32,524 nucleotides of DNA, from assembly GCA_021819125.1 (NCBI GenBank), contig JAKARW010000018.1, positions 1 to 32,524 on the forward strand. The letters are read 5' to 3'. Shown one piece after another: positions 13,682 to 26,126 of this stretch. The position numbers and the translations under genes were made by a program. Source of the stretch: Pseudomonadota bacterium (GTDB taxonomy: Bacteria > Pseudomonadota > Gammaproteobacteria > Acidiferrobacterales > Acidiferrobacteraceae). The notes beneath the pieces are model-generated. The model was not told the origin of the DNA. It did not search any database and worked only from the letters and a program-made list of their open reading frames with translations. How positions within the stretch are numbered: the first letter of the stretch is position 1; each line of letters begins with the position of its first letter.

Positions 13682-14368
13682 CTAGGGGCGCGCGAGGATG
13701 GCGCGCAGATAGGGGATGGTAAGACGCCGGCCGTCGACCAAAGTCTCGCGATCGAGGTCTTCGAGCAACGTGAAAAGCGCCTGAGGGTCACGCGGACCAT
13801 GAGCCAAAAGATAGGCGCTCGCGGCATCGCTCAAGTCGAGCCCGCGCAAGGAGGCGCGGTGACGCAGGGCCTGGGCCTTGACCTCGTCCGACAGGCGACG
13901 CATGGCGACGACGGGGCCGCTTGCAAGCCGCGTCCGCAAGTCCGCGCGCGCCACCGGTAGACCGGCGGGGTTACTACGCCCGGCGAGCGCGATGCGCCGC
14001 GCCGGCGCCAGCGTCTCAAACAAGACGAATAGGCGCCGCTCGCCATCGACGTGTCCCGCCAAGGCCTCCATGTCATCGACGCAGACGGTACTGTCAGGCG
14101 GCAGATCGGCAAGACTTCCCCAAGCCGCCTCAGATGTATGGGCGAGCGACACAAAGGCGCAAGGGCCGCTTTCCGAAACCGCGCGCGCCAGCGCCGCCAG
14201 GAGATGGGTCTTGCCGCAGCCCTCGGGACCAAACAGATACAAGGGTCCCGGTCGCCCCTGCGCAAGGGCGCGTGCGGCGGCGAGCGCCGCGCCGTTTTCG
14301 GCCGCCCAGAAGTTCGCAAACGAGGGGCGGTCGCGCACCGACAGATCAAGTGGCAGTTGGCGCGTCAT
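13682..14368 (-). CDS. hda: DnaA regulatory inactivator Hda
   Basis: Starts MTRQLPLDLSVRDRPSFANFWAAEN; Walker A-like GPEGCGKTHLLAA; DnaA-like AAA+ architecture. Confidence 0.88.
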   Translation of the reverse strand: MTRQLPLDLSVRDRPSFANFWAAENGAALAAARALAQGRPGPLYLFGPEGCGKTHLLAALARAVSESGPCAFVSLAHTSEAAWGSLADLPPDSTVCVDDMEALAGHVDGERRLFVLFETLAPARRIALAGRSNPAGLPVARADLRTRLASGPVVAMRRLSDEVKAQALRHRASLRGLDLSDAASAYLLAHGPRDPQALFTLLEDLDRETLVDGRRLTIPYLRAILARP

Positions 14369-14583
14369 CGCGTCGCGTAGGACGCATCGGTCGAGCGCCA
14401 GACCACTTCCCCTGTACCCACGCGCACCACGCGCACTTCTTGCTTTTTGGGATCGTCCACGCCTTCGATGGCCATCGCAATCGCAGCCGACCTGTCGCTG
14501 TCGTGTCGCGTAAACACATCGGCCGGCAACCCATCGCTTGCCAGCGGAAAGTCCGACTCAATTCGGTAACTCACAGCGCGCAT
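14365..14583 (-). CDS. 72-aa protein of unknown function, translationally coupled to hda; homologue of ORF in IS607-like element
   Basis: MRAVSYRIESDFPLASDGLPADVFTRHDSDRSAAIAMAIEGVDDPKKQEVRVVRVGTGEVVWRSTDASYATR; ATGA overlap with hda; clear similarity to the 24.5-24.7 kb ORF. Confidence 0.75.
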   Translation of the reverse strand: MRAVSYRIESDFPLASDGLPADVFTRHDSDRSAAIAMAIEGVDDPKKQEVRVVRVGTGEVVWRSTDASYATR

Positions 14584-14804
14584 CCGGTTTCCTAGGATAC
14601 GAGAGTCTAGCGCCATCACCCGCGCAAACCAAAAGCCGCGAACGCGACCGGAGAAACGGGGGGCGACGCGGTGGCCGGCGCCCTCTGCAAGACGGGAAAG
14701 TCGCGGCCTTGCGAAGCGATCCTGAGGCACGGCGCGACCCCCGGCGCCGGACCTTGCCTCACGCCTGGCGGGCAAGCGAGACTCCGGCGGCCCAGACGGG
14801 GCGC

Positions 14805-15371
14805 TCAGTCTTTCCCGGCGCGCCCGGCCTCGATCTCCCGCACGATCCCCCATGTCCACAAATAGTGTCCGCCGCTTGCGATCGTCGTGACAAGGACCAT
14901 GAAGACGAGCGCCGCCTGGATGTGGGCGGCAGGAAACGCAAAGGCGCGCTCGGTAAGGACAAACACCACAAGCAGGATCTGGGTGAAGGTGTTGAACTTG
15001 CTCACCCGGCTTGGACGCATCGATACCGGCCCATACAGCGAGGTATAGACGAGATAGCCGCCGACGATGACCACGTCCCGGAAGGTCACCACGAGCACCA
15101 GCCAAAACGGCACGAGCGCGAGGAGGGCCAGCATGATGTAAGCGCTCACCAGCAGGATCTTGTCCGCCAAGGGGTCGAGGATGGCGCCGAGCTGGCTCAC
15201 GAAACCAAATCGTTTGGCGATGTAGCCGTCCAGCCCGTCCGATATCCCGGCCACCAGAAAGACCGCCAACGCCTTCAAGTAATGATGATCCTTAAGGACC
15301 AGGATCAAAAGCGGCACGAACGCCACCCGCATCAGGGTGATCGTGTTCGGCAAATACTGCAGTCTTTTCAC
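14805..15371 (-). CDS. CDP-alcohol phosphatidyltransferase (PgsA-like)
   Basis: [43 protein letters not shown] (CDP-alcohol phosphotransferase motif). Confidence 0.9.
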
Positions 15372-22644: not shown

Positions 22645-22881
22645 CTAAAACGATTCACCGCGGGCACGCATCTCGGCCAAAACGACGTCGATGCCCTTCT
22701 TGTCGATGGTCCGCAGCGCATGGTGCGATAGACGCAGCCGTACCCAGCGATTCTCGCTATCGACCCACAACCTGCGGTAATGCAGATTGGGCAGAAACCG
22801 CCGGCGCGTCTTATTGTTGGCATGCGACACGTTATTACCACTCATGGGCCGCTTGCCGCTGACCTGGCATACCTTGGACAT
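22645..22881 (-). CDS. rpmB: 50S ribosomal protein L28
   Basis: [40 protein letters not shown]...; starts inside a longer ORF. Confidence 0.97.
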
Positions 22882-23162
22882 GGGAACCCCCAGATGAATC
22901 CGCGAATTGTGCCATAGCATGCGGCTCTTGCCAATCCCCTGTGTTGCGTACCGGCATCCCTCCCGTGCCGCGGGATCCGGGATTTTGGGAGTCGTCGGCG
23001 CCGCCCCAGGCCCTCTTGACCCCGCGATTGGCCTTGGGGACGCCCCGAAAGGGAGATTGATGGACCCCGTATCGATTACCATCGGAAATGGGAGGCGAGA
23101 AGGAAAGGCGCACCGGCGGCCACGGTACGCCGCCTGCCATGATGGGCACCCATCGCCTGCTA

Positions 23163-24503
23163 TCAAGAAAGTGCGCAAAGGTGCGCACAGTTCTTTTCCT
23201 GCCCCGACGTGTCTTGCTGACCACATTCGTGTCTGGCAGGCGTGACTTTCCCGGCTACGGTGGGGGCCATCCCCACCGTAGCGCCGCCGTTGCCGGACGG
23301 CCTCGCCACGGGTAGGGCAGTTGCGGTTGCCAGCCGTTTGAGGTTTTGCGCTGCGTTGTGGTCGCGGTCATGGTGCGTGCCGCATTGCGGACACGTCCAT
23401 TCCCGATCCTTCAATGTCAACGCTTCGTTCTTCCCGTCACAGATCGAGCACAGGCGGCTGCTTGGAAACCAACGATCAGCGATCACCAATCGCGTGCCGT
23501 AGCGTTTCGCCTTGTATTCCATCTGCGAGCGGAACATCCAAAAGCCCACATCGCTGATGGCGCGGGCGAGTGTTTCGTTCGCCAGCATCCCTTTGATGTG
23601 CAAATCCTCGATCACCACCGCTTGGTTTTCGCGGCAGAGCTGAGTCGTGAGCTTGTGGGTGAAATCCGCTCGGATATTGGCAATGCGGGCATGTCGCTTT
23701 GCCAATGTCGCAGAGGATTTCTTGCGATTGCGGGATACGGGCAGTCTCGTTCCTTTTGGCAGACGGGCGTTGGGCGCAAAGCCCGCAGTGATTTTTGCCG
23801 CCTCGATCTTGCGGCTAAGGCGACGGCTATGGATTTTCAGGCGACGCAATGCCGCCTTGAGTGGCTTCGGCGCTTCGATGGTCTCCCCGCTGGAAAGGGT
23901 GGCAGCCGCCTTGAGGCCGAGATCGACGCCCTGAACCCCGTTTGCGGTGCGTCGGCGGTAGAACTGCGCATCCGGCACTTCGACCTGAATCGCTACAAAC
24001 CAGTTGTCCGCTGTGCGCGAAACAGTCGCCCCAAGGATTTTGCGTTCGAAGCGCAGCGCCTCTGTCATGGCAACTTCGCCAATTTTTGGCAGACGGATCG
24101 TCTTTCCATCCACCCTGAACTTGTCGTTTGCCACGTAGAAGCTGTCGCGGCTGCGACCCTTCTTCTTGAACCGCGGTTCATGGGCAGGTTTGCCGGCTTT
24201 GATGTGGGCGAAGAACCGATTCCAAGCTTTGGCCAAGTGAGCAAACGGTTGTGCGTGGGCGTCGCGATGGATGGTCTTCAACCACGGTTGCCCATTCTCG
24301 TCGAGCCATTGCCGGTCACTGTACTTGATGGCGTTGAACCGCTTTTTCAGCGCCATCGCATTGGGCTTTTGCCCCGCTGCGTACTGCTTGTTCCACTCGC
24401 CCAACGCCCAGTTCCAGACGCGCCGCGCCGTCCCGCAGGCGCGGGCGAAGTTGTCCGCCTGCTCGGGCGTCGGACAAAGGGCGACCTTGTGCGTCAGTTG
24501 CAC
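23163..24503 (-). CDS. tnpB: TnpB (OrfB) RNA-guided nuclease family protein
   Basis: RuvC motifs [12 protein letters not shown] (D), [12 protein letters not shown] (E), [11 protein letters not shown] (D); zinc finger CSIC...CPQC; GTG start. Confidence 0.93.
23171..23188. repeat. Hairpin at the 3' end of tnpB
   Basis: GTGCGC-AAAGGT-GCGCAC, overlapping the last tnpB codons. Confidence 0.6.
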
Positions 24504-24512
24504 GGATTACTC

Positions 24513-24726
24513 CTATTCTTCATCAGTCGAGCGCCCTATCCCTTCGCCGGTTTCCACGCACATGACGCGCACCTCTTGCTCTGCCGGATCCCACACCTTC
24601 CACACCTTCGATGGCCGCAGCTACGGCTGCGCTCTCGTTGTCGTAATGCTGTTTGAATGCCTTGGCAGGCAGCCAATCGCTGTTTGGCGGAAAATCCGCT
24701 TCAATGCGACAGGTCATGTTCCGCAT
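24513..24726 (-). pseudogene. Frameshifted homologue of the 72-aa hda-coupled protein, located between tnpA and tnpB
   Basis: MRNMTCRIEADFPPNSDWLPAKAFKQHYDNESAAVAAAIEGVEGV then, in another frame, DPAEQEVRVMCVETGEGIGRSTDEE*; tandem CACACCTTC at 24592-24609. Confidence 0.75.
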
Positions 24727-25334
24727 CCTTCTTCAGTGCCTCGTCTAGCTTTTTTCGGTAGTCCCTCAACCCATACAGCCGGGACGAAAAGCCATGCACG
24801 ATGGTCATCAGGTCTTGCACCATTTCCTGTTCAGGTGACAACCGTTCCTGATTGAGCACCATCAGTTCGCAGCCATTGACCTTGGCAAAATGCTCAAACC
24901 ACTCAAAACCAAACCGCGTAAGCCGGTCGCGGTGCGCCAGAATCAGCGTCTTGACTTCCCGCCGCCCGATTTCGTCCATCAGCGCGAGGAACTGCTTGCG
25001 CTTGAAATTGAAGCCCTCACCCACTTCCTCGATGAACTCGACGTTCGCCCAAGCCTTTCGCCACCACAAACTCCTCCAACACCTGGCGCTGATGGGCGAG
25101 ATCGGGCTTTTGCGCGGCCCTTGACACGCGGCAGTAGGCAACCAGCCGTGTCGGCTCGGATACCGCATTGCGCAAGCCAATGAACTCGCGGATTTGCGTT
25201 TCGGTATACAGGCGTCGGTTGCTGTCCGTCCGTGCCACCGGAACCAACCGGCCCTCGCGCTCAAAGCGTTGCAGCGTCTTGACTGATATGCCCAGCAGCT
25301 TCGCCGCCTTGCCTGTGCTCATAGTGTTCTCCAT
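24701..25334 (-). pseudogene. tnpA: IS607-type TnpA (MerR-like HTH + serine recombinase), split by a single-base frameshift
   Basis: MSTGKAAKLLGISVKTLQRFEREGRL...RLVAYCRVSRAAQKPDLAHQRQVLEEFVVAKGLG | ANVEFIEEVGEGFNFKRKQFLALMDEIGRREVKTLILAHRDRLTRFGFEWFEHF; frame change near 25048-25050. Confidence 0.88.
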
Positions 25335-25451
25335 ATCTGCGGTAATACGCTATCGCGCACTCCTTGCAATACTAGAGTTTAGCTCCGCCCAGAACGATGC
25401 CCTCGCCGTGCGGCCCTTTTTGTGACCCGGTGCGCGCCACATACAGATCCG

Positions 25452-26126
25452 CTACAACCACCCGCGCTCCTTGAATGAGACGATATGGCCATCGCCGACC
25501 ACGAGATGGTCGACGACGCGCACGCCAATCAAAGCCAGCGCCTCGGCCAGGCGGCTGGTAAGATCGCGGTCGGCAAGGCTTGGTTCGGCGTGGCCGGAAG
25601 GATGGTTGTGCACGAAAATGGCCGCTGCGGCATTATGCAAAAGCGCGCGCTTGACCACCTCACGCGGATACACGACCGCTGCGTCTATCGTTCCCTCGAA
25701 CAGGACCTCCTCCACGAGCAGGCGGTGACGGACATCGAGAAAAAGGCAGGCAAAGGCCTCGCGCGGACGGTCGCGAAAGGCGGCGGTCAGGTAGCGGCGC
25801 GTTATAAGCGATGACGACAAGACGGTTTCGCGCCGCAGGCTTTCCCCGAGGTGGCGTCGGCCCATCTCCAATACCGCTCGCACCACCGCATATTTGGCGG
25901 GCCCAAGACCCGGCGCCTCGCAAAACAGACGCTGCTCGACCGTCAACAGGCCACGTAATCCCCCGAAACGCGCCAGCAACGAACGTGCGAGATCCACGGC
26001 GGTCTTGCCGCTCACCCCCGTTCTTAGGACAATGGCCAACAGCTCGGCGTCCGACAAGGCCTCCGGGCCGTGTTGCAACAGGCGCTCGCGCGGACGTTCG
26101 TCTACCGGCCAGGCGGAAATGGTCAT
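25452..26126 (-). CDS. radC: RadC-family (JAMM/MPN+) protein
   Basis: [29 protein letters not shown] motif [15 protein letters not shown]. Confidence 0.95.

Follow-up and report, generated by a model that had tools for sequence, protein, structure and literature searches.

A small open reading frame (ORF) situated between tnpA and tnpB of an IS607-type element most probably belongs as a passenger gene to a single IS607 sublineage, its homologue beside hda in the same window (the whole stretch of 32,524 nucleotides that was analyzed) being a second, independent acquisition. The ORF occupies positions 24513–24726 on the reverse strand. It starts at 24726, within tnpA and 26 nt from the 3′ end of that gene (stop codon at 24701), and it ends, once the reading frame is followed past a frameshift, in the TAG at 24515–24513, the GTG start codon of tnpB following 9 nt further at 24503. 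These coordinates bear out the earlier note, which had placed the ORF between the two genes of an IS607-type element, with a start 26 nt within tnpA and a restored stop about 10 nt before tnpB. It had also regarded the ORF as integral to the element, and this holds since homologues share the tnpA/tnpB junction in other genomes, making the ORF an integral third gene of this IS607 lineage. In the window the gene is a pseudogene, and intact copies exist in other genomes. A DNA alignment with intact homologues showed that the frame is broken by a 7-nt insertion, AGGTGTG, adjoining the repeated GGTGTGGAA, and revealed a premature stop near the C-terminus as a further lesion. Moreover, a tryptophan conserved in the other homologues is lost.

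The element spans about 23157–25386 on the reverse strand, as delimited by alignments of its ends with related elements. Its left end, beginning with GGAGCTAAACTC, lies near 25386 and its right end, closing with TTGATAGCAG, near 23157. IS607 elements are characterized by insertion at GG without terminal inverted repeats or target duplication; here the left end reads GGAG, and since the ends were deduced from relatives with differing flanks, the position of the crossover is approximate. The insertion site is located between radC (25452–26126, reverse strand) as left and rpmB (22645–22881, reverse strand) as right neighbor, and both genes are contiguous without the element in two genomes (G012 and G013). 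The tnpA gene (24701–25334, reverse strand) is broken by a 1-nt frameshift near 25047–25055, identified by alignment with L026, L004 and L027, and therefore matches the IS607 transposase model NF033518 in two halves; PF00376 and PF00239 were matched as well, i.e., the N-terminal MerR-type helix-turn-helix and the serine recombinase catalytic domain of the family are present. Downstream follows tnpB (23163–24503, reverse strand), encoding 446 amino acids in an intact frame, which matches NF040570 (1.1e-89, above the cut-off), PF07282 and PF01385, as well as NF038280 at 2.2e-73, below the 350-bit cut-off of that model. TnpB contains the RuvC D/E/D motifs, and dN/dS values of 0.13–0.21 were obtained for tnpB against its relatives. 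The element in the window is thus decaying, with tnpA and the third ORF broken and tnpB open.

In retaining tnpA (NF033518) and tnpB (NF038280/NF040570) in the usual order, with tnpB reaching to the right end, the element resembles other members of the IS607 family. It differs from them in having a third gene between tnpA and tnpB, whereas the family is described with two ORFs (PMC6188088). This two-ORF content, which is typical of IS607 and not strictly defining, is found neither in the window nor in the ORF-bearing relatives; the element is an IS607 variant, both usual genes of which still belong to the family. No third gene in IS607 elements was found in the open-access literature searched, an absence which is no proof. 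It was shown that TnpA alone is sufficient for IS607 transposition (PMC6188088), so the product of the third ORF need not take part in it.

The earlier note had made its reading dependent on the occurrence of homologues in other IS607/IS605 elements, and these are present in four other genomes, either at the tnpA/tnpB junction or directly before tnpB. In a genome of the same genus (L006, G008) the ORF lies between tnpA and tnpB of a decayed element, and it takes the same position in a Chloroflexus metagenome-assembled genome (MAG; L004), a MAG contig that could be misbinned. A genome of the order Burkholderiales (G1065) carries it at the junction in a deleted form (L109), and the Sulfuricystis plasmid pSTJ2 (L009) carries an intact ORF directly before tnpB, with no tnpA. 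Two rearrangements were observed alongside: in the Chloroflexus IS607 element a tnpB-only element is inserted into the small ORF (L004:2790-4060), and G1065 contains a further deleted copy elsewhere (L104:2-304), in which an internal deletion has produced an in-frame fusion of the TnpA N-terminus with the C-terminal portion of the small ORF. Elements in which tnpA is directly followed by tnpB without the ORF are L026 (TnpB 75% identical, N-terminal half of TnpA 88%), L027 (TnpB 68%) and L029 (TnpB 82%). The same arrangement was found in the distant plasmid-borne IS607 elements that keep tnpA, among those examined, favoring a gain of the ORF by the insertion sequence over its ancestral presence. 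In a TnpB tree, presence and absence of the ORF need a minimum of two changes and 43% of the bootstraps allow a single one, i.e., the elements with the ORF are not firmly grouped together. In a further close relative (L028:2450-2500), the part of tnpA upstream of tnpB is replaced by the apparent end of another insertion sequence.

Homologues also occur as stand-alone genes. In two genomes (G317 and G1001) a homologue is located between a VirB8 gene and an uncharacterized 123-aa gene in a conjugation cluster with TrbL/VirB6 nearby. At L011:1504-2072 and L073 the conjugation-cluster homologue overlaps the following 123-aa protein, for which no Pfam match was obtained. A distant stand-alone homologue with about 31–36% identity is present in G768. 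Overall, the ORF family is rare, with strong matches in just a handful of genomes of the sampled class, phylum and order sets. A scan of genome contigs with the single read-through protein as query matched only the Chloroflexus locus, and an alignment query might find more; a scan of IMG/VR with the ORF alignment returned no homologues, nor were any found in phage records. Four weak order-level matches (L105–L108) were set aside as probable chance matches: the three inspected closely, L106, L107 and L108, cross in-frame stops, and L106 and L108 fall inside longer unrelated frames.

Pairs of ORF homologues with measurable dS have a dN/dS of about 0.2, and most of their differences are at third codon positions. 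This dN/dS value shows that the ORF encodes a protein, which is maintained by selection in the intact copies. The broken frame in the window might suggest a functional RNA or a chance reading frame instead of a protein-coding gene, but this reading is contradicted by the dN/dS together with the third-position bias among the homologues and by the conservation of protein length and fold; it was rejected on the dN/dS, and its probability is negligible. For five natural sequences AlphaFold2 predicted a β-α-β-β fold with a mean pLDDT of 85.7. The intact IS-borne proteins and those of the conjugation clusters are acidic (pI 4.05–4.85), the hda-linked copy less so (pI 5.2). Comparing the fold of the ORF product with PDB and BFVD yielded nothing significant; Foldseek against PDB returned nothing at an E-value of 0.001 or better, and 2hjj (YkfF) was not among the 50 matches listed. 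The nearest family is DUF905 (PF06006), matched over residues 16–64 with E-values of 0.001–0.05. The likeness is weak: four homologues scored 19.2, 17.5, 14.5 and 14.1 bits, all below the Pfam gathering threshold of 22.3 bits, and a profile comparison with hhalign gave a probability of 63 at an E-value of 7e-5. The ORF product and DUF905 (YkfF, PDB 2hjj) are of similar length and both families occur on mobile DNA, whereas the C-terminal WNFEP..LN.Y region is not common to the two. Membership in DUF905 was rejected because the scores are below the cut-off and the fold comparison added no support. No biochemical function of the ORF product emerged from the family and fold searches, and it qualifies for none of the curated families.

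The homologue beside hda is an intact gene of 72 amino acids (14365–14583, reverse strand). The alignment of the ORF with this protein, proposed in the earlier note, proved highly significant: in a whole-genome search the read-through protein matched it with 58% identity over residues 1–67 (E 2.5e-18; match at 14383–14583), and the two halves of the unrepaired ORF scored 114 and 70 against shuffle maxima of 44 and 40, each exceeding 2000 of 2000 shuffles. The stop codon of the hda-linked gene overlaps the start of hda (13682–14368, reverse strand; DnaA regulatory inactivator homologue with PF22688 Hda_lid and PF00308) as ATGA (14368/14365). On its other side lies a gene for a CDP-alcohol phosphatidyltransferase (pgsA-like; 14805–15371, reverse strand). 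Most relatives have an AI-2E transporter gene between the pgsA-like gene and hda. Among the 14 hda loci found elsewhere in the genus, this gene precedes and overlaps hda at ten (verified with PF01594 in G004 and judged from the sequence in the others), and at the remaining loci it looks decayed or deleted. No AI-2E transporter gene remains at 14365–14805 in the window; here the small ORF overlaps hda by an identical ATGA, and its frame apparently extends beyond the point at which it normally stops. Upstream of the small ORF, 20 of 22 nt give no more than a hint of a remnant of the transporter gene.

The earlier note had considered a host gene coupled to hda that was captured by the element, for which the homology of the two copies and their presence in the same window can be cited. 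However, none of the 14 further hda loci, from 13 genomes of the genus, has the small ORF; most have the AI-2E transporter gene, or what is left of it, in that place. Homologues are lacking altogether in 12 of these 13 genomes and occur in the remaining one only within an IS607 remnant. The hda-linked copy is therefore unique among the 14 genomes of the genus and is not a conserved host gene. Moreover, IS-borne copies are already present in other genomes, and the two copies in the window are only 65% identical in DNA with a dS above 1, too far apart for either to have been copied recently from the other. A recent duplication within the window was rejected on these values, and local capture of the hda-linked gene as the origin of the ORF, judged from the same divergence and the absence in relatives, is highly improbable. 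The hda-linked copy is a separate acquisition standing where most relatives have the AI-2E transporter gene. It might derive from an IS607 element of this lineage by insertion and subsequent loss of tnpA and tnpB, a route that we regard as possible and somewhat doubtful. At hda as in the element, the ORF is immediately followed by the next gene, and the similarity of the two copies includes GGATGCG around the first start codon; however, tblastn around 14 kb detected no tnpA or tnpB remnant near the hda-linked copy, the stand-alone homologues of the conjugation clusters are an equally possible source, and the available proteins are too few to root a tree.

Taking the ORF as a passenger gene, a small stand-alone gene of the kind otherwise found in a conjugation cluster and now and then in chromosomes would have entered between tnpA and tnpB, taking the place of a few codons at the end of tnpA. 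By this replacement tnpA, the ORF and tnpB would have stayed abutting and could be co-translated. The element would then have carried the gene into Acidiferrobacter-like, Burkholderiales-order and possibly Chloroflexus hosts. Counted against the passenger gene are the loose grouping in the TnpB tree, the small number of intact IS-borne copies known, the dead copy in the window, the possible misbinning of the Chloroflexus contig and the negative outcome of the family and fold searches for a function. A conserved third gene at this junction means that even minimal two-gene IS607 elements can gain and spread passenger genes. Regarding its function, the ORF product may plausibly, with a chance a little short of even, be an accessory factor that binds proteins, assists mobile DNA in its host and is dispensable for transposition. 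An accessory factor of the element itself, one of the two readings in the earlier note, is conceivable.

Next to the accessory factor, a direct role on TnpB is the following candidate. As the ORF directly precedes the gene of an RNA-guided nuclease, its product is a concrete, testable candidate for a protein that naturally associates with TnpB. If the product served TnpB as a dedicated partner or regulator, e.g., by limiting or directing RNA-guided cleavage, this would explain the location of the ORF immediately before tnpB; the acidic nature of the product is consistent with such a role. Furthermore, the intact ORF and tnpB stay together on the Sulfuricystis plasmid despite the loss of tnpA, and the TnpB encoded there (L009:4208-5548) has an asparagine that aligns with the catalytic Asp361 of ISDra2. 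This makes it a candidate nuclease-dead TnpB, and the ORF–tnpB pair may thus be kept for DNA binding. However, homologues beside hda and in the conjugation clusters lack tnpB, and close TnpBs at 75–82% identity lack the ORF, so that a dedicated TnpB partner is rather unlikely. Exapted TnpBs of the TldR type are recognized by a lost RuvC catalytic residue, a missing tnpA and a guide RNA that matches a promoter elsewhere. The Sulfuricystis relative resembles these proteins in the substituted RuvC catalytic residue and the lack of tnpA, a likeness that is not claimed as membership, and the TnpB of the window differs from them in keeping the D/E/D motifs. Less probable still is a three-gene unit, evolved by an IS607 lineage, in which the small acidic protein tunes the RNA-guided nuclease, with the Sulfuricystis pair of ORF and substituted TnpB, devoid of a transposase, being kept for a role outside transposition. 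Upstream of the ORF–tnpB pair on pSTJ2 (L009:3670-3900), a reverse-strand stretch resembles the C-terminal tail of another TnpB, perhaps marking how tnpA was lost.
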